From Limihaloglobus sulfuriphilus (GTDB lineage: Bacteria; Planctomycetota; Phycisphaerae; Sedimentisphaerales; Sedimentisphaeraceae), in the NCBI RefSeq assembly GCF_001999965.1, contig NZ_CP019646.1, positions 434,001 through 498,000 of the forward strand: a DNA stretch of 64,000 nt. Direction: 5' to 3'. A program made the position numbers and the translations under genes. The notes beneath the pieces are model-generated. The model did no database searches. It was not told where the DNA came from and was given only the letters and a program-made list of their open reading frames with translations. Shown one piece after another: positions 11,349 to 20,064 of this stretch (its first letter is position 1; the number at the start of each line of letters is the position of its first letter).

Positions 11349-12302
11349 TCAGAAATTCCAGGAAACAGTCAGACTGGCGATACTGTCTTTTGCGTGCTGA
11401 TTCTCGTACTGGTCTGTGAAGAATGTCTGGGAGTATTTAATGTCGAAGTCCTTTATGTTTATGACGATACCCAACTGGGCCTGGGCAGTGAGGGGTTCTT
11501 CTTTGAGGCCGGTTAGAAACCTGTTATGCTCGACACCTCTGCCGGAAATTCTGCCGAATAGATATGACGAGCTCTTAGATGTCGCGGCCGTGCCGTCTAT
11601 CGGCAGCCGATACCTGCCCGGCCCCAGCTCGCCCGGTTTGATGATTCCAAGCCGCATAAGCATTCCCGCCTCGGCATGTCTGAACACAGAGCCGACGGTA
11701 AGCCCGTAATCAGCGAGAATATCAAAGTCGTAACCAAAGAGTTCATAAGCATCTGTGAGCTTTTGCCGGATATAATAGTCGAGATTTATAGCGAATTCAT
11801 CTGAAAGCTGCTCGTCCCAGCCTATCGGCTTCGGGGAGCCGGTGATTTCATGAACAGGTTTCTGTATGGATTCGCCCAGAGCTGACGGGCCTATTACACC
11901 CATATTCAGCTCGATATATTCGAGTTTTTCTGAGTTTGAGCGGACATTAAAAAAACCGCCGTAGAGCCAGGCATTATACTTCATATCAGGCGTAGGCCGC
12001 ATGTTCGGCATGTCAATATAGTCGGGGGTATATAGGTCTTGGGCAATATAAACTCCCGACTCTCTGAGAGGCTCGGCTCCAGAGGCGAATGCCCAGCCGC
12101 CGAAGTAATCCAGCAATTGCCAGTCAGGCGTTTTCGTTACCCATGCCAGTTTGAAACCATTGGTATAATGCCGGTCGGTATTGTGGTTGGGCTTTAGGAT
12201 TTTGCTGTCATTCTGGAGATAAAGGTTGAGTGATTCCCCTGCGGCGGGAAATACGCTCATAAACACAATTATCGCTGTCAGTATAGCTTTTGTTTTTATC
12301 AT
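11349..12302 (-). CDS. LpxR-like (DUF2219) outer-membrane lipid A deacylase family protein
   Basis: Predicted outer-membrane beta-barrel. After a signal peptide (MIKTKAILTAIIVFMSVFPA) the mature chain begins SLNLYLQND, followed by the DRHYTNGFKLAW stretch typical of LpxR/DUF2219 proteins. The protein ends in a strand finishing with Phe, as outer-membrane barrels do. LpxR removes the 3'-acyloxyacyl group of lipid A; whether this member does so is inferred. The start at 12302 puts the signal peptide at the N-terminus; an in-frame ATG at 12359 would add 19 residues, and neither has a clear ribosome site. It lies just downstream of the MetF fusion gene. Confidence 0.75.
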   Translation of the reverse strand: MIKTKAILTAIIVFMSVFPAAGESLNLYLQNDSKILKPNHNTDRHYTNGFKLAWVTKTPDWQLLDYFGGWAFASGAEPLRESGVYIAQDLYTPDYIDMPNMRPTPDMKYNAWLYGGFFNVRSNSEKLEYIELNMGVIGPSALGESIQKPVHEITGSPKPIGWDEQLSDEFAINLDYYIRQKLTDAYELFGYDFDILADYGLTVGSVFRHAEAGMLMRLGIIKPGELGPGRYRLPIDGTAATSKSSSYLFGRISGRGVEHNRFLTGLKEEPLTAQAQLGIVINIKDFDIKYSQTFFTDQYENQHAKDSIASLTVSWNF

Positions 12303-12368
12303 TCGGTGTTTGTTTGCTGTATTTGAATTCCAGGTTTTAATTTTGACATTCACGGACATCTATGCGGC

Positions 12369-14816
12369 TTATTTAACCGCCTTTCTATTATTAGAGCAGA
12401 ACTCGCCCATCAGTTTCATCGCTTCGTTGAGGTTTTCAGAGTCTCCGTCAATTTTCGCGAATGCCTCTACGAGTTTCACCAGCTCAGGATCAGCGGGCTT
12501 AAGCCCAAATTTGTGAGACGGGTTCACTATGCCCGCGTCCAGTCCGTACCGCATAGCCACTTCAACATAAGCACGGGCAACACCGATTTTTCTGCCCGGC
12601 AGGTCTCGCACAGAGTTGGTAACTCCCAGAGAGCAGTGGCAGTCTTTCATCTGCGGATGCGTTTTAATCCGCTTGATGGTCTCGAATGCCCTGTATGTAA
12701 AGCCGCTTTGGCCCGGCATCATCGGCATATCTATCGCCAGCGGGAATACTGTTGTATCGAAGAAAATATCATCCGGCTTGAATCCGTAGCGGTTCACGGC
12801 GGCATCGAAAATCTTTTCTGCTATCTTGAAGAGCTCTCCGATCGGGTCATCACTGGTCACCTGTTTCTCATCCGCAACCAGCAGGCCGATAAACTTGAAT
12901 TTGTAATCCTTTTTCAGCGGCATAATCTCGTCAATAGTGTGTTCCTTTATTGAGTTGATCAGCGGCACGCCCACTTTCTGCTTCGTGTTGTACCATTCAG
13001 CCAGCCCCGCCTTTAGAACATTATCATCGCTGCTGTCGATACATGCCGGCACTCCGTGGCTCCATTTGCGAACGAGACGGACGTACTTTTTCATAAGCTC
13101 GGCTGTCAGCTGCGGGTCATCTTCCCCGAAAGCGTCAAGGTTGATCGCGATGTAGTCGGCGCCGTCTCGTGCCTGCTGGTCAATCAGAGAATGAATGTAC
13201 TCAAGCTCGCGGCTGTTGGCGGTATCCCAGTTATCCAGCTTGTGAAGGGCTTTCATTACCTCGCCGGTATTGGGGATAGAAGCGTGCACCATTTCGCCTA
13301 TGTTTATTATCGGGCATTTCACTGTATGATCCTTTGACAAAATATAATTAACAATTGAAGCGCTGTGTTCCAGCTCGGGCATTCGCGGCTTGTTTGACCT
13401 GGCCCTGAGTTTTTCCAGTCCGCCCTCGGTGGCAGCCGCGGCTTTGTAAATATATTCGCCAATACAAATTCTGTCAAGGTTATTGCAGCAGTATCCGTCT
13501 TCTGTGCTGTCGCCGCAGGGTGCGTTGTCGAGACCTTTTTCGCAGCCGCCGATGGTGCAGTAGCTGAAGTTCTCGGGCAGGTAGCAGTCGCCGCATTCCT
13601 CGCATTCAAAAAGCCAGTACTTTATCGGCTTTTCAATTCCGTTGAAAGCGGAATAACAGAAGCCCTTGGCCTTGTCCATTCCGCAGACTTGCATGGTTGA
13701 TTTGAGGCACTTTCCAACTGTAGATTCGGGGTTGATTATATGCTCGTGCATGAAATCAAAGTTTTTCTGGCGGAATTTACGTTTGGGCTTTGACAGCTGG
13801 ACTTTCTCGCCTGTTTCGTAGTAGAGGTACCAGCTTTTCTTGGCCGGCCAGCAGAGGTTATCTTTGTAAGCCTCCCAGCTCTCGCCAATCTCCGCCGCAC
13901 GTTTTAGTATCTTGATGAACGTCTGATAGTCTTCTACTCCGCCAAGATCAATTCCCGCGGCTCCGATTGATTTGTACATGGCAACCTGCTGGGCAGCGCG
14001 TTCAATGTGGTCTTCGACTGATTCACTGATGATTTTCTTGAAGAATTCGTCGCTGACAAAACAGCCCGGCAGTTTTCTATCGTGCATAAGACGCGGCGCA
14101 GGAGTAAGAGTGCTCAGGAAATACACGTTGCCCAGCACCGGGGTATCGAGGTTTTCGTCTTTGAGATACCGCATAAGCTCGGCGGATTTTCGCCAGTCCC
14201 AGCCGACCTGCGTAATCAGGAATTCTGCCCCTGCGCGGATTTTCTTTTCCATCTTGAAATACTGCTGCATCTGTGAGGCTTCTGTGTATTTAAACGGAGA
14301 GACTGCCGCGCCGGCAAAAAACGTGTTAACCTTCTCCAGGCCGTCGGGTTTGGCTTTGATGTATGATTCGTTGTTCAGCTCACGCATCTTGTTCAGCAGG
14401 CCGATAGATTCCAGGTCAAAAACGCCCTGAGCGACGGTCGGTTTGTCGCCGGTAAGGGCCAGTATGCTCTCAATGCCGCTGGCACGGTAGCCGTAGAGCC
14501 GGCTGACCAGGGCATCGGAGTTGTAGTCTTTACAGCTCAGGTGCGGAATGAAATCCAGCTCCCCCAGCAAATCGTTCTGGCGAAGATGTGCCAGGATAAC
14601 ATCGGGGTCGATGTTCGCAACGCCGCCGGGGCTTTGAGGGTTGGTGATGCCGACATAGTCGAATTCGTCCGGGATATCAAGCCCGTTGGAGTTTCTGAAT
14701 GCCTCCATGAATTTGTTTATAGGTGCGAGATTGCAGTTGGGGCCGCTGCATAACTCAGTGACAATAACAAACTTATCTCTCGTTTTGAGTGCCTGGCTAA
14801 GTCTCTTGCCGCTCAT
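12369..14816 (-). CDS. Fusion of methylenetetrahydrofolate reductase, MTHFR C-terminal Cys domain and methyl-THF methyltransferase
   Basis: An 815-residue cytoplasmic protein with three joined modules. Residues 1-310 are a MetF TIM barrel (VTELCSGPNC, LALTGDKP, ITQVGWD), which reduces 5,10-methylene-THF to methyl-THF. Residues 365-455 are Cys-rich (C405, C408, C411, C420, C425, C434, C443, C444) and match the MTHFR C-terminal domain known as MetV in acetogens, an Fe-S partner. Residues 500-790 resemble the pterin-binding methyltransferases AcsE and MetH (INIGEMVHASI, DYIAINLDAFGED, ACIDSSDDNVLKAG, PLINSIK), which move the methyl group from methyl-THF to a corrinoid protein. One chain could therefore make and hand on the methyl group. 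No corrinoid-binding protein is visible in the window. Confidence 0.85.
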   Translation of the reverse strand: MSGKRLSQALKTRDKFVIVTELCSGPNCNLAPINKFMEAFRNSNGLDIPDEFDYVGITNPQSPGGVANIDPDVILAHLRQNDLLGELDFIPHLSCKDYNSDALVSRLYGYRASGIESILALTGDKPTVAQGVFDLESIGLLNKMRELNNESYIKAKPDGLEKVNTFFAGAAVSPFKYTEASQMQQYFKMEKKIRAGAEFLITQVGWDWRKSAELMRYLKDENLDTPVLGNVYFLSTLTPAPRLMHDRKLPGCFVSDEFFKKIISESVEDHIERAAQQVAMYKSIGAAGIDLGGVEDYQTFIKILKRAAEIGESWEAYKDNLCWPAKKSWYLYYETGEKVQLSKPKRKFRQKNFDFMHEHIINPESTVGKCLKSTMQVCGMDKAKGFCYSAFNGIEKPIKYWLFECEECGDCYLPENFSYCTIGGCEKGLDNAPCGDSTEDGYCCNNLDRICIGEYIYKAAAATEGGLEKLRARSNKPRMPELEHSASIVNYILSKDHTVKCPIINIGEMVHASIPNTGEVMKALHKLDNWDTANSRELEYIHSLIDQQARDGADYIAINLDAFGEDDPQLTAELMKKYVRLVRKWSHGVPACIDSSDDNVLKAGLAEWYNTKQKVGVPLINSIKEHTIDEIMPLKKDYKFKFIGLLVADEKQVTSDDPIGELFKIAEKIFDAAVNRYGFKPDDIFFDTTVFPLAIDMPMMPGQSGFTYRAFETIKRIKTHPQMKDCHCSLGVTNSVRDLPGRKIGVARAYVEVAMRYGLDAGIVNPSHKFGLKPADPELVKLVEAFAKIDGDSENLNEAMKLMGEFCSNNRKAVK

Positions 14817-14838
14817 CTGTAAACTCCATATTCTACAG
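14817..14838 (-). promoter_or_regulatory. Hairpin enclosing the ribosome site of the MetF fusion gene
   Basis: On the minus strand CTGTA (14838-14834) pairs with TACAG (14821-14817), with the stem ending directly against the ATG. GGAG, 7 nt from the start codon, sits in the loop. The stem is only 5 bp, so control of translation is possible but not established. Confidence 0.4.
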
Positions 14839-15158
14839 GATCATTGATAGAAGCGAAAAACTTTGAATAATACGCTTCTGTTAAGTTTAAAACCAAAAAA
14901 ATAGCCTAAAACAGCGGAAAAATCAATATAAATCGCAAAACAGCAGAATATTGCCTAAATATGACGCTTTTGATATATTTTGTATAAATCGAAGGGGTTT
15001 ACTCTCAACTCTTTATTCACAAAGAGATTATCAGTGCATCGCGAGTAACAGTGCGTTTGCCGTTCTAAAGTATGGCGGCAAGCGCCGGCGCGACACCGCT
15101 TATAAAACCGATGTAGCCCAAAACGCTGCTTAAACGGGAAAAAGCGGTGCCCCCTGTA

Positions 15159-15180
15159 GAGAGAATTCACGAATTCTCTC
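15159..15180. repeat. 22-bp palindrome, copy 1
   Basis: GAGAGAATTC and GAATTCTCTC form perfect 10-bp arms around AC. The pattern GAGnnAATTCnnGAATTnnCTC is shared with copy 2, 117 bp away. It could be an operator or a repetitive extragenic palindrome. Confidence 0.7.
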
Positions 15181-15275
15181 AAAAAGGTAATGTCCGAAAC
15201 AACATTAAAATAACCAGAACCGGTCATAAACCGTTATTGGGTTTTATTCTGCGTACAGATGGGCATAAGCGTCTG

Positions 15276-15297
15276 GAGCAAATTCGTGAATTTGCTC
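15276..15297. repeat. 22-bp palindrome, copy 2
   Basis: GAGCAAATTC and GAATTTGCTC form perfect 10-bp arms around GT. The arms differ from copy 1 by compensating changes, so symmetry rather than exact sequence is kept. Confidence 0.7.
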
Positions 15298-15403
15298 TAC
15301 AAAAGCTTAAACACCGCGTCGATGTTGTCGGCTCTCTCCAAAATCGTCGGCAGGTGTAATGCCGCTTGCAAAAGGCAGGCTCGCAGGTTAAAATTATCGA
15401 ATC

Positions 15404-16588: not shown

Positions 16589-16617
16589 TTGACTGAGTAA
16601 CGCTATGTGAGTATTAT
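16589..16617 (+). promoter_or_regulatory. Promoter of the arsenic operon
   Basis: TTGACT (16589-16594), a 17-bp spacer and TATTAT (16612-16617), 28 bp before the arsR start. The repeated TATGTGAGTAT motif overlaps the spacer and -10 box, so a repressor there would block polymerase. Confidence 0.75.
16604..16614 (+). promoter_or_regulatory. Putative ArsR operator, site 1
   Basis: TATGTGAGTAT overlaps the arsR -10 region. The identical 11-mer recurs at 16990, before the second gene. Confidence 0.5.
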
Positions 16618-16645
16618 GTGTTATATTAACATAAAGGAAAATACT

Positions 16646-16975
16646 ATGGACACAGCAAAAATGCAGATATATCAGTTGAAGGCCCAGATTATTCAGGCCG
16701 CGGCGCATCCTATCAGGCTGGCTGTCATTGAATACCTTGCCGACGGGGAGCAGTGCGTATGTGATATCGTGGACTATGTCGGCGCTCAAAGGTCCAACGT
16801 GTCAAGGCATTTATCTGTCATGCTCCGTGCCGGCGTTTTAGACTGCCGTAAAGATGGGCTCAAAATGATGTATTCGCTCAAGACACCGTGTATTGTCAAG
16901 TTCCTCAGCTGCGTAGAGCAGGCATTGAAAGAGCGGATTGAAGGGCAGGCTGCTATTTTGAGTAAAATGGAATAA
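16646..16975 (+). CDS. arsR: ArsR-family arsenic-responsive repressor
   Basis: A 109-residue winged-helix repressor. The HTH spans about residues 44-62 (VGAQRSNVSRHLSVML). The Cys pair C37 and C39 (QCVCDIV) sits at the start of the DNA-recognition region as in E. coli ArsR, where arsenite binding to such thiols releases DNA. The third Cys of the E. coli site is not at the same place; C67 may substitute. It is the first gene of the island, with a strong promoter and AAAGGAAA 5 nt before the start at 16646. Confidence 0.88.
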   Translation: MDTAKMQIYQLKAQIIQAAAHPIRLAVIEYLADGEQCVCDIVDYVGAQRSNVSRHLSVMLRAGVLDCRKDGLKMMYSLKTPCIVKFLSCVEQALKERIEGQAAILSKME

Positions 16976-16989
16976 TTTTTTTAAAGATA

Positions 16990-17000
16990 TATGTGAGTAT
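16990..17000 (+). promoter_or_regulatory. Putative ArsR operator, site 2
   Basis: A second exact TATGTGAGTAT between arsR and the permease gene, suggesting an additional regulated start site there. Confidence 0.45.
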
Positions 17001-17060
17001 ATGATTGTATAGTATTGCAGTCAAAAAACTGAAATTCATTTTTTGGGAGAAACACAACTA

Positions 17061-18530
17061 ATGAACTGGAAAAATGAGTGGAAAAAGTTAGCGGCTATTG
17101 CTGCGGTTTTTCTGGCATGTTTTTATCTGCCGGTGGGCATCAAAAGATTTGATAATGCAATTATGGAATCGCTGCACCTGGTCAAATGGTACGCACAGGA
17201 GCATGTTCTGTTGTGCCTGATTCCGGCGTTTTTTATAGCCGGAGCGATTTCCGTGTTTGTCAGCCAGGCATCCGTGATGAAATATCTCGGTGCCAAGGCG
17301 AATAAAATCCTCGCCTACGGCGTGGCTTCGGTTTCAGGGACAATACTGGCTGTCTGCTCCTGCACAATCCTGCCGCTTTTTGCCGGCATATACCGCATGG
17401 GCGCCGGCCTGGGACCGGCTACGGCGTTTTTGTATTCAGGCCCTGCTATAAATGTACTTGCAATTATCCTCACCGCCCGGATTCTGGGTTTAGAGCTGGG
17501 TATCGCCCGTGCCGTCGGTGCGGTCCTGTTCAGTGTTGTTATCGGGCTTATCATGCATTTTATATACCGCAAAGAAGAGTTAGACAAAGCCAACGGCCAG
17601 ATGGCTATGCCCGAGCCGGAGGTTAGCCGGCCGCTGTGGAAAAACGCGGTGTTTTTTGCCGTCATGATTGGCGTTCTCGTATTTGCTAACTGGGGAGCTC
17701 CCAATGATTTCTATTTTGAAACCGCTGAAGGCAATACGTTCAGAGCCGCAGTCATGCAGGCTCCCCAGCACGGCAGCGAAGAAGGTTTTTATGTTGTCAA
17801 GATTGCCGGCGGCGACAAAGCCGGTCAACAGGCAGAGATTCCCGTTGCGGATATAGTAAGCAAAGAAGCTGTACCGGGATTCTGGACGAGCATCTGGGAA
17901 AGTAAGTGGATAATCACATCAGTTTTCGCGATAGCTCTGGCTTTGGTTCTTGTGCTGTGGTTTTCAATACCCTTGTGGAAAGTGCTTACAGCCGCAGTAC
18001 CTGCCGCGGTTCTTGCCTTTGCTTTGCCGATAGATGGGATGATGGTTATGATACCGTTCACCGCGGCGGTAATCGGCCTCTCCTGGGCAACGAGCACAAC
18101 AAAAGGCGAAGCAGAGGAGTGGTTCAGCTCAACCTGGACTTTCGCCAAACAGATTCTGCCTTTGCTGTTTTTCGGCGTGATTATCGCCGGCGCTCTGCTG
18201 GGCAGGCCGGGGAATGAAGGCCTGATCCCGTCGCAGTGGGTGGCACGTGCAGTCGGCGGCAATTCCCTGTGGGCGAATCTGTTTGCTTCGGTAGCCGGAG
18301 CGTTTATGTATTTCGCGACATTAACTGAAGTTCCCATTCTGCAGGGCCTTATAGGTGCAGGAATGGGCAAGGGCCCTGCGCTTGCGCTGCTGCTGGCGGG
18401 GCCGGCGCTTAGTTTGCCTAATATGCTTGTGATACGCTCGGTGATGGGCACGCAAAAGACAGTTGTTTTCGTGCTGCTGGTTATTGTCATGGCGACAATT
18501 TCAGGGGTTTTCTTCGGAGCCTTTTTCTAA
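17061..18530 (+). CDS. ArsP/DUF318-type permease
   Basis: A 489-residue membrane protein with two sets of about four to five helices separated by a soluble loop (about residues 200-285). The first half carries CSCTILPLFAGIYRMGAGLG followed by FLYSGPAIN, the hallmark of the DUF318 permease family. That family includes ArsP, which exports trivalent methylated arsenicals, and related Cu/Zn exporters. The second half repeats the theme (ATLTEVPILQGLIGAGMGKG). In this setting arsenic or metal-thiol export is likely. GGGAGA precedes the ATG at 17061, which is preferred over a TTG 18 bp upstream. Confidence 0.85.
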   Translation: MNWKNEWKKLAAIAAVFLACFYLPVGIKRFDNAIMESLHLVKWYAQEHVLLCLIPAFFIAGAISVFVSQASVMKYLGAKANKILAYGVASVSGTILAVCSCTILPLFAGIYRMGAGLGPATAFLYSGPAINVLAIILTARILGLELGIARAVGAVLFSVVIGLIMHFIYRKEELDKANGQMAMPEPEVSRPLWKNAVFFAVMIGVLVFANWGAPNDFYFETAEGNTFRAAVMQAPQHGSEEGFYVVKIAGGDKAGQQAEIPVADIVSKEAVPGFWTSIWESKWIITSVFAIALALVLVLWFSIPLWKVLTAAVPAAVLAFALPIDGMMVMIPFTAAVIGLSWATSTTKGEAEEWFSSTWTFAKQILPLLFFGVIIAGALLGRPGNEGLIPSQWVARAVGGNSLWANLFASVAGAFMYFATLTEVPILQGLIGAGMGKGPALALLLAGPALSLPNMLVIRSVMGTQKTVVFVLLVIVMATISGVFFGAFF

Positions 18531-18602
18531 TTAGTGAAACTCGAAAATACTCAAAATCGGAATTTAACAAAATTAACCAACATAACTACAGGAGATTCTT
18601 AA

Positions 18603-18836
18603 ATGATAAAGATACAGATACTTGGAACCGGATGCCCAAAATGCAAAAAATTAGCCGAAAACGCGGAGGCCGCCGCCAAAGAAGCCGGCATAGAATATGA
18701 AATCGAAAAGGTTACCCAGATAAACGATATAATGAAGATGGGTGTAATGATAACTCCCGCACTGGTTATTGACGGCGAAGTCAAAACCTCCGGCAAAGTC
18801 GCACCGCCGGATGATATAAAAGCAATGCTTGTCTGA
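18603..18836 (+). CDS. TM0996/MTH895-family glutaredoxin-like protein
   Basis: A 77-residue thioredoxin-fold protein, the 'redox-active disulfide protein 2' type. Its active site is C11-P-K-C14 in GTGCPKCKKL, and cis-Pro lies in VMITPALVIDG. Such proteins are commonly linked to DUF318 permeases. It may deliver reducing equivalents to ArsC or the permease. A GGAGATTC lies upstream of the ATG. Confidence 0.85.
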   Translation: MIKIQILGTGCPKCKKLAENAEAAAKEAGIEYEIEKVTQINDIMKMGVMITPALVIDGEVKTSGKVAPPDDIKAMLV

Positions 18837-18864
18837 TATTAAACCCCAATGCTGAGGAATTACC

Positions 18865-19344
18865 ATGAATAACACGAAAAAAGCAGTAATTGTAATCGCC
18901 CTGATCGCTGCTGCTGCTGTAGTTATAGCACTGAAGAAGGGGCCGGATAAACCCGCTGCCGAAGATGCGGGCAATACAAATAGTTCTGAAACTGAAACCG
19001 TTTCTGAATCAAATATCACCGCAGAGACTCCTGTGCAGAATTTGCCCAGAATGGTTGATTTAGGTGCAGACAAGTGCATTCCATGCAAAATGATGAAGCC
19101 GATACTCGATGAGCTGAAACAGGATTACAAGCAGCAGTTTGAGGTGATATTTATCGATGTCTGGAAAAACCCAGACGAGTCCAAAAAATATAACATAAAC
19201 CTTATTCCTACCCAGATTTTTTATTCTGCCGCCGGCGAAGAGCTGTTCAGGCATGAAGGCTTCTACTCCAAAGAGGATATTCTTGCTAAATGGAAAGAAT
19301 TAGGCATTGATATTGCGGTTAATATCGCCAGTGAAAGCAATTAA
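18865..19344 (+). CDS. Membrane-anchored thioredoxin-family protein
   Basis: A 159-residue protein with one N-terminal membrane segment (about residues 7-23), a flexible Ser/Thr/Glu-rich linker and a thioredoxin domain. The active site is C71-I-P-C74, an uncommon dipeptide, followed by cis-Pro in NLIPTQIF. It should face the periplasm, where it could be kept reduced by the CcdA protein encoded next to it. Confidence 0.85.
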   Translation: MNNTKKAVIVIALIAAAAVVIALKKGPDKPAAEDAGNTNSSETETVSESNITAETPVQNLPRMVDLGADKCIPCKMMKPILDELKQDYKQQFEVIFIDVWKNPDESKKYNINLIPTQIFYSAAGEELFRHEGFYSKEDILAKWKELGIDIAVNIASESN

Positions 19345-19365
19345 AGTCATACAAGGTTTAATGCA

Positions 19366-20064
19366 ATGCAGGAGATTTTCACACAATTAACACAGGCGGT
19401 AGAGGGCGCGTGGTATCTTGCTGTTGCCGCGTCATTTATCTGGGGCATTCTGAGCATAATCCTGAGCCCGTGCCACCTTGCCAGTATTCCCCTGATCATA
19501 GGTTTTATTGACGGGCAGGGCAGGATTTCTACCAAACGGGCATTCTGGATATCAACCGTGTTTTCTGTCGGTATCCTGATAACAATCGGCCTGATTGGCG
19601 CTGTTACCGCTGCCGCCGGCCGGATGATGGGTGATGTCGGCAGATACGGCAATTATTTTGTGGCAGTGATATTCTTTGTGGTCGGGCTGCATTTGCTTGA
19701 TGTGATACCAAATCCCTTTTCCGGCCCCGGACAGGTGGGTATGAAGCGTAAAGGGATGCTTGCCGCGTTTATACTCGGGCTGATTTTCGGCGTAGCCCTC
19801 GGGCCGTGTACTTTCGCGTATATGGCGCCGATGCTGGCTATCGCTTTCAGGGAAGCCTCGGAGAGCATGATGTACGGGGTTTTGCTGATACTGGCTTATG
19901 GAATCGGCCATTGTGGAGTAATCGTTTTTGCCGGCACCTTTACAGAGGTTGTTCAGCGGTATATGAACTGGAACGAAAAGTCAAAAGGCGCTGTAATCTT
20001 AAAGAAAATCTGCGGACTGCTGGTTATACTCGGCGGCCTTTGGATGATATATACTGCTCCGTAA
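19366..20064 (+). CDS. ccdA: CcdA-type thiol electron transporter
   Basis: A 232-residue membrane protein with about six helices. The redox pair is C36 (LSPCHLASIPL) and C148 (LGPCTFAYMAP), in the two pseudo-symmetrical halves, as in CcdA and the DsbD core. Members carry electrons from cytoplasmic thioredoxin to periplasmic thioredoxin-like proteins. Here the likely partners are the preceding anchored thioredoxin and possibly the exported flavoprotein that follows. Confidence 0.88.
   Translation: MQEIFTQLTQAVEGAWYLAVAASFIWGILSIILSPCHLASIPLIIGFIDGQGRISTKRAFWISTVFSVGILITIGLIGAVTAAAGRMMGDVGRYGNYFVAVIFFVVGLHLLDVIPNPFSGPGQVGMKRKGMLAAFILGLIFGVALGPCTFAYMAPMLAIAFREASESMMYGVLLILAYGIGHCGVIVFAGTFTEVVQRYMNWNEKSKGAVILKKICGLLVILGGLWMIYTAP

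Follow-up and report, generated by a model that had tools for sequence, protein, structure and literature searches.

A reductase–MetV–methyltransferase fusion in Limihaloglobus sulfuriphilus as the likely folate half of a split methionine synthase

Which one-carbon route is served by a single chain that joins a methylenetetrahydrofolate reductase (MTHFR), a MetV-like cysteine-rich domain and a methyltransferase (MT), and where does its methyl group go? We address this question for an 815-aa fusion protein of Limihaloglobus sulfuriphilus, encoded at positions 12369 to 14816 of a 64,000-nucleotide stretch (positions 434,001 to 498,000 of NZ_CP019646.1; the whole stretch is hereafter the window). 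Computation established its domain content, the conservation of its catalytic residues, its fold, its conservation across the order Sedimentisphaerales, the presence of its partners and the absence of the usual alternatives, and from these we infer what the enzyme catalyses, which partners it binds, in which direction the flow runs, what donates the electrons and any channelling. We consider it likely that a split, corrinoid-dependent, RamA-reactivated methionine synthase has this fusion as its folate half, joined to an MTHFR of its own, because partner genes are present in the genome, MetE, MetH, the corrinoid/iron-sulfur protein (CFeSP) and MttB were not found in it, and co-occurrence, gene neighbourhoods, published proteobacterial genetics and one particularly clear genome (G007) agree with such a role.

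A single chain of three domains

The open reading frame, read from the minus strand, starts with ATG at 14816, with many stops on the plus strand of 12369-14816, and the protein is encoded once in the genome, a single contig of 3.87 Mb. Its features, in window coordinates, are as follows.

12369..14816, minus strand: fusion gene, 815-aa MTHFR–MetV (C-terminal half)–methyl-tetrahydrofolate (methyl-THF):corrinoid methyltransferase, one open reading frame with stop codon
13887..14816, minus strand: MTHFR barrel, residues 1-310 (PF02219, motif/alignment, fold match)
13428..13652, minus strand: DUF5981/MetV C-terminal half, residues 389-463 (PF12225, invariant Cys, MetV alignment)
12372..13322, minus strand: methyl-THF:corrinoid MT barrel, residues 499-815 (PRK07535, alignment to 2yci/3k13, fold)
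14824..14827, minus strand: GGAG, ribosome-binding-site-like, 5' of the ATG (sequence reading, motif match only)

Three Pfam domains scored above their curated cut-offs: MTHFR (PF02219, residues 86-242, E=1.2e-16), DUF5981 (MTHFR C-terminal/MetV, residues 390-463, E=1.4e-10) and Pterin_bind (PF00809, residues 536-734, E=6.7e-10). The C-terminal part additionally matched the NCBIfam models PRK07535 (methyl-THF:corrinoid/FeS protein methyltransferase, residues 534-776, E=3e-27) and MetH (E=2.5e-18), each under the model's own cut-off, and we read the PRK07535 match as family-level kinship only. Its solved relatives are AcsE/MeTr (2yci) and the folate domains of MetH (3k13, 4ccz). From the set of classical MetH domains—homocysteine methyltransferase (HMT), folate (Fol), cobalamin (Cob) and activation—the fusion has Fol only in Pfam searches, with PF00809 standing without PF02574, PF02607 or PF02310, so that the MT is unjoined to HMT or B12 domains.

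An earlier note, made from the sequence alone, had proposed this single-chain fusion of MetF, a MetV-like Cys domain and a methyltransferase, and the Pfam domains, the predicted structure and the distribution of the chain bear it out. We rejected the assembly join or frameshift that the note had named as a way to overturn its proposal, because the chain has homologues in 38 of the 59 genomes sampled from the order, and in contigs of many assemblies, most of them full-length, uninterrupted reading frames (contig ends truncate a few). The coordinates in the note were correct, although the minus strand went unstated; its domain borders (1-310, 365-455 and 500-790) were close to correct; and its third domain does match pterin-binding methyltransferases, by PF00809, PRK07535 and fold (TM 0.80-0.83). 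The MetV-like label was upheld by the DUF5981 match but applies to the C-terminal, eight-Cys half only.

Conserved residues, predicted structure and the middle domain

Invariant across 34 aligned fusions, which share 43-69% identity, are the MTHFR residues E21, H92, D124 and Q203, the eight middle-domain cysteines C405, C408, C411, C420, C425, C434, C443 and C451 and, in the MT, D594, while D687 and N734 are nearly so; catalytic residues are retained in every intact copy except that of genome G020. H92 and D124 align to His88 and Asp120 of E. coli MetF (3fst/1b5t alignment), and E21 and Q203 presumably correspond, by motif, to its Glu28 and Gln183. In the MT part, N734 and D687 align to N199 and D160 of MeTr (alignment to 2yci and 3k13), which we take to be the catalytic and the pterin-binding residue, respectively.

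An AlphaFold2 model built with 34 sequences (mean pLDDT 85.3, pTM 0.85) contains two well-predicted barrels, with pLDDT of 58-70 in the Cys-rich part. For the N-terminal barrel, Foldseek returned the MTHFRs of T. thermophilus (TM 0.78) and E. coli (0.77); for the C-terminal barrel it returned the folate domain of MetH (TM by target 0.83), AcsE/MeTr (0.80) and an O-demethylase methyltransferase component (4o0q, 0.76). The N-terminal part thus has the barrel, catalytic Glu and flavin/folate Asp that define MTHFR (PF02219), and the C-terminal part has the pterin-binding barrel with the Asn and Asp of the MeTr superfamily, the equivalent of MeTr D75 being lost. Ala or Glu in place of this Asp marks the MT as a subfamily of its own, which also has a characteristic H511 and D561.

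The middle domain, when aligned with full MetV proteins of the order, keeps just the C-terminal DUF5981 half. The N-terminal MetV half and its cysteines are missing, as they are from a 157-aa Azoarcus "MTHFR C-terminal domain" protein, and the fusion consequently lacks the full-length MetV with an N-terminal Cys-bearing half by which type II MetVF is recognised. Its eight-Cys site is probably an iron-sulfur and/or zinc site; no solved MetV structure was found by sequence. Acetogen MetVF, which contains flavin mononucleotide and iron-sulfur clusters, makes no use of NAD(P)H (PMC8760232), from which we infer, by analogy, a donor other than NADH for the fusion. Separately, a plasmid of Acinetobacter lwoffii (L121: 5803-11332) carries a two-domain MTHFR-DUF5981 protein near MesX and a methionine synthase, which again seems to tie DUF5981 proteins to methionine synthesis.

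Conservation also bears on the idea that the MTHFR-MetV half is idle or regulatory (e.g., a folate/redox sensor), and that the MT half works on methyl-THF supplied by a separate HMT-MTHFR protein. The genome does encode that second MTHFR, several other genomes do without the N-terminal half (having a stand-alone MT), and the MTHFR part is divergent from solved enzymes (E about 1e-3). We nevertheless consider an idle half very unlikely, given the invariance of E21, H92, D124, Q203 and the eight cysteines, the lack of any other detected MTHFR in G007, and the case of G020, which keeps the MTHFR-MetV half while its fused MT has decayed.

Partner genes and missing alternatives in the genome

Absences in the L. 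sulfuriphilus genome rest on profile searches for named families. These returned no PF02965 activation domain, and therefore no classical MetH, and likewise no MetE, no CdhD/CFeSP (PF03599) and no MttB, whereas MtaB- and MtvB-type first methyltransferases were not searched for. A candidate acceptor lies 10.2 kb past the window end: a 207-aa corrinoid protein (genome 508222-508845) with a PF02607 cap and PF02310 B12 domain, the DxHxxG motif in the form DLHDIG, MtgC as its best NCBIfam profile (under the cut-off of that profile), and higher identity to its Azoarcus counterpart (49%) than to the Cob domain of MetH (33%). A second PF02607 protein (at 1344 kb) was rejected as acceptor, having a weaker match; it is CarH-like and its gene is followed by one for a histidine kinase, and for these reasons it is probably a sensor. 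In seven genomes (L072, L073, L074, L076, L079, L083 and L086), the corrinoid gene adjoins genes for a fused electron-transfer flavoprotein (ETF) alpha-beta protein and for an ETF-QO-like protein, possibly as an electron supply, or by plain synteny.

Candidates for the homocysteine half-reaction are also present. A separate HMT of 296 aa (genome 271081) has the zinc motifs GTNC and GGCC, and a second HMT forms part of a PRK08645-type HMT-MTHFR protein (G000:C1:3746981-3749032, or L044:4982-7033) with its GxNC/GGCC zinc motifs intact. The MTHFRs of this protein and of the fusion belong to different clades, and both half-reactions of methionine synthesis carry an MTHFR of their own. Two RamA/RACo (DUF4445) genes and a DUF1638 gene (genome 628000-628527, E=3.7e-39) complete the set.

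The missing CdhD speaks to a Wood-Ljungdahl role, in which the fusion would run the methyl branch with CFeSP as acceptor, as in acetogens. Its three activities match MetF, MetV and AcsE, and in genome G039 a stand-alone MT lies beside MetV and Fhs in a carbon monoxide dehydrogenase/acetyl-CoA synthase (CODH/ACS) region. We rejected this role for L. sulfuriphilus for want of CdhD and find it barely credible for the fusion overall: CdhD occurs in 2 of 38 fusion genomes vs. 7 of 17 with a stand-alone MT (p = 0.0023), CODH/ACS genomes often carry a distinct AcsE-type protein of their own as well (G039, G045), and cultured Sedimentisphaerales are described as strictly fermentative (PMC11266412). 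Like the other co-occurrence p-values reported here, this one is a guide only, as the genomes are related, some are incomplete, and relatedness is uncorrected.

These results refine the earlier note, which had called the acceptor protein missing from the window: it is absent there but not from the genome, where the MtgC-like 207-aa protein would fill the role. The genome-wide look for corrinoid protein, MetH and MetE that the note recommended turned up the first and neither MetE nor a classical MetH. The unusual one-carbon or methionine route that it suggested survives in that a methionine route is the best reading, with the acetogen parallel only second best. As the closest comparison, acetogens give way to the Phaeobacter/Ruegeria split synthase, which matches the RamA, DUF1638 and separate HMT of a genome without CdhD/CFeSP.

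Comparison with known systems

In Phaeobacter inhibens, pterin-binding, corrinoid and homocysteine proteins, a RamA-like protein and DUF1638 are all needed for methionine, as determined by genetics (PMC5764234), and R. pomeroyi mutants in MtgD or MtgC are methionine auxotrophs (PMC12478193). Common to these systems and to that of the fusion are separate pterin-binding, MtgC-like corrinoid and HMT proteins, a RamA-like reactivase, DUF1638 and the lack of PF02965, and, judged by sequence matches, all five features of the Phaeobacter-type synthase (separate MT, corrinoid protein, HMT, RamA without PF02965, and DUF1638) were found in the L. sulfuriphilus genome. The position of R. pomeroyi metF2 downstream of mtgD further resembles the joining of MTHFR and MT in the fusion. 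The differences are that the pterin-binding protein here shares one chain with an MTHFR and half a MetV, and that the organisms are anaerobes from a different phylum; the MT is only remotely similar to the form found in proteobacterial neighbour clusters (28% to the Azoarcus MT).

That Azoarcus cluster, on plasmid pAZKH of the betaproteobacterium Azoarcus sp. KH32C, consists of consecutive genes for a corrinoid protein, DUF1638, a small protein labelled as a virulence factor, a short MetV, MetF, MT (labelled "dihydropteroate synthase") and an ASKHA protein. Each domain of the fusion has a gene to itself in this cluster; the three are direct neighbours, accompanied by genes for the corrinoid protein, DUF1638 and RamA, and the MetV-like protein is of the same short form. 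Unlike the fusion, the cluster is unfused, runs MetV-MetF-MT rather than MetF-MetV-MT, and is flanked by glycine betaine transport genes.

Other systems share parts of the design. Type II MetVF of acetogens (PMC8760232) likewise combines MetF with the C-terminal Cys motif of MetV, and probably with non-NADH electron entry, whereas the fusion lacks the N-terminal MetV half and its cysteines, is joined to an MT, and occurs in a genome without the acetyl-CoA pathway. With AcsE and the MetH folate domain, the fusion MT shares its barrel fold (TM 0.80 and 0.83, respectively) as well as the catalytic Asn and the Asp that binds pterin; it differs in its Ala/Glu at D75, in H511 and D561, and in sitting C-terminal to a reductase. 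The YitJ-like HMT-MTHFR (PRK08645) of the same genome also places a methionine-pathway methyltransferase and an MTHFR in one chain, but there the MTHFR, from another clade, is joined to the homocysteine half-reaction, with no MetV domain.

Distribution, gene neighbourhoods and evolution

Beyond the 38 genomes with the fusion, a further 17 of the 59 carry only a stand-alone MT of ~315 aa. A scan of one genome per species, of limited sensitivity, returned 12 relatives, all from planctomycetes bar one Kiritimatiellales metagenome-assembled genome; a broader phylum search covered Planctomycetota.

Neighbourhoods in relatives suggest that the fusion joins genes that elsewhere are operon neighbours, as seen in the Azoarcus cluster and in several other loci. 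The Kiritimatiellales locus (L008) encodes, consecutively on one strand, the fusion, FocA, Fhs, a 208-aa corrinoid protein, RamA and DUF1638. In G003 and G009, from the same family as L. sulfuriphilus, a stand-alone MT lies 11 nt from HMT-MTHFR; in G043, MetV, MetF and MT are consecutive separate genes; and in G330, from another planctomycete class, a two-domain MTHFR-MetV gene is followed directly by an MT-like gene. Separately, in genus g21 (L051:7124-8032, L060:7591-8457) a classic MTHFR gene stands directly upstream of the stand-alone MT, such that reductase and MT appear to stay together though unfused. In families across the order, the gene next upstream of the fusion or of a stand-alone MT often encodes a ThiD2-ThiE fusion (L001-L007, L047-L049, L051, L054, L060), which the window lacks.

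In a tree of MTHFR sequences, those of the fusions group as a single clade (support 99), which lies close to the two-domain MTHFR-MetV proteins found in other planctomycetes and is separate from both HMT-MTHFR and stand-alone MetF. In the MT tree, a quick search with long outgroup branches, several CODH/ACS genomes of family f7 have stand-alone MTs that branch next to fusions from that family, suggesting that the reductase half was lost where another MetF/MetV exists. In the same tree the L. sulfuriphilus fusion groups with family f2, while others of its own family have divergent stand-alone MTs, a pattern for which transfer or differential loss is the likely cause. G020 (L050: 4904-8538) looks like a natural uncoupling of the fusion, with a degenerate fused MT (catalytic N->D and D->E) followed by an intact stand-alone MT.

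Co-occurrence across the order

RamA was found in 51 of 55 MT-bearing genomes and in none of the 4 MT-less ones (Fisher p = 1.5e-4). Two of these 4 (G004, G048) have an intact classical MetH (~1250 aa) and neither fusion, stand-alone MT, RamA nor DUF1638. Genome G007 (97% complete) is the cleanest case for a split methionine synthase: it has a corrinoid protein, HMT, RamA and DUF1638, no MTHFR or MT was detected in it besides the fusion, and neither MetE nor MetH was found.

The same surveys bear on the main rival, a catabolic flow in the reverse direction, in which a methyl group from a methylated compound would pass via the corrinoid protein to THF at the C-terminal barrel and be oxidised by MTHFR-MetV to methylene-THF and on to formate or CO2. 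Ruegeria MtgC and MtgD also run backwards in glycine betaine demethylation, and the proposed oxidant of methyl-THF there is R. pomeroyi MetF2, whose gene lies downstream of mtgD (PMC12478193); the Azoarcus cluster sits between betaine-transport genes; MttB occurs in 10 of 38 fusion genomes; and an O-demethylase component (4o0q) is among the C-terminal fold matches. The case appears strongest for L008, where the fusion lies beside Fhs and FocA, through which formate could be released and ATP gained, in a genome that also has a classical MetH. For the fusion at large we nonetheless think reverse flow quite improbable. No MttB was found in L. sulfuriphilus or 27 other fusion genomes (MtaB, MtvB and the like were not searched for), MttB shows no association with the fusion (p = 1.0), and L. 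sulfuriphilus has no other recognised methionine synthase, so that the biosynthetic direction would be needed unless it is an auxotroph. Demethylation of glycine betaine or methylamines via MttB was set aside for L. sulfuriphilus, as no MttB was found, though other first methyltransferases were not searched for.

Proposed mechanism and its weighing

As the folate half of a split methionine synthase, the fusion would act as follows. At the N-terminal barrel, 5,10-methylene-THF would be reduced to 5-methyl-THF by electrons that a one- or two-electron carrier other than NADH would deliver through the Cys-rich domain derived from MetV. The C-terminal barrel would then transfer the methyl group of methyl-THF to the cob(I)alamin of the MtgC-like corrinoid protein of 207 aa, a separate chain, from which a zinc HMT (the 296-aa protein and/or HMT-MTHFR) would form methionine, while RamA-type ATPases and DUF1638 would re-reduce the corrinoid after oxidation.

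Several observations weigh against this assignment. All functions of the fusion family are read from sequence and model, and the MT is about equally distant from AcsE (hhalign E 6e-18), MetH-Fol (1e-17) and the Azoarcus MT (9e-16), such that its sequence alone would not assign it to methionine synthesis; the position of MeTr D75 is moreover Ala557 in the L. sulfuriphilus fusion and Ala or Glu across the MT family. The partner genes are scattered through the genome rather than clustered, and HMT-MTHFR supplies a second MTHFR that would make the fused one redundant. Among relatives, DUF1638 does not differ significantly between MT-bearing and MT-less genomes (43 of 55 vs. 2 of 4, p = 0.24), MetE also occurs in seven fusion- or MT-bearing genomes, and the L008 genome has its classical MetH.

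The earlier note had further suggested that joining the domains would channel methyl-THF straight to a corrinoid acceptor, for which plausible is as strong a word as we would use. A bolder scheme, in which one chain makes methyl-THF and delivers it to the corrinoid protein without releasing the folate, and in which two MTHFRs with different donors serve both ends of one split synthase, seems unlikely to us; if true, channelling would take in the sole one-carbon step at which commitment to methionine is normally irreversible.

Other features of the window

Within the window the fusion gene has LpxR on one side and a divergent hydrolase on the other, with no evidence of an operon. The LpxR-type lipid A deacylase (PF09982, E=3e-59; 11349-12359, minus strand) begins 9 bases past the fusion stop, a pairing not seen in relatives. 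Searches for cobalamin and SAM (S-adenosylmethionine) riboswitches returned none in the window, in 13 related loci or, under permissive settings, in the upstream region. The intergenic region upstream of the fusion gene (15155-15301) contains two near-perfect palindromes with AATTCACGAATT in common, which has 2 matches in the window vs. 0.12 expected and no Rfam match. Further along, consecutive genes at 16607-20064 (plus strand) encode an ArsR regulator, a 495-aa ArsP-type permease, a thioredoxin and a DsbD-like membrane protein, and look like an arsenic-type or redox cassette.

Significance

Each module of the fusion is already known, and in the open-access literature we found no paper on an MTHFR-MetV-MT fusion or on a split methionine synthase in planctomycetes. 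If the fusion is the folate half of such a synthase, the split, RamA-dependent enzyme known by genetics only from marine alphaproteobacteria would extend to an order of anaerobic planctomycetes, and these largely fermentative bacteria would gain a methionine route where our survey found no MetE or full MetH. By the gene-fusion principle, their union in one chain argues that MTHFR, short MetV and MtgD-type methyltransferases act together, which would give a function to "MTHFR C-terminal domain" proteins, of which descriptions are poor. As a single chain of 815 aa, the fusion is also well suited to studies of folate channelling and of which donor truly supplies electrons to MetV-type reductases, a point at issue in acetogen energetics (PMC8760232).

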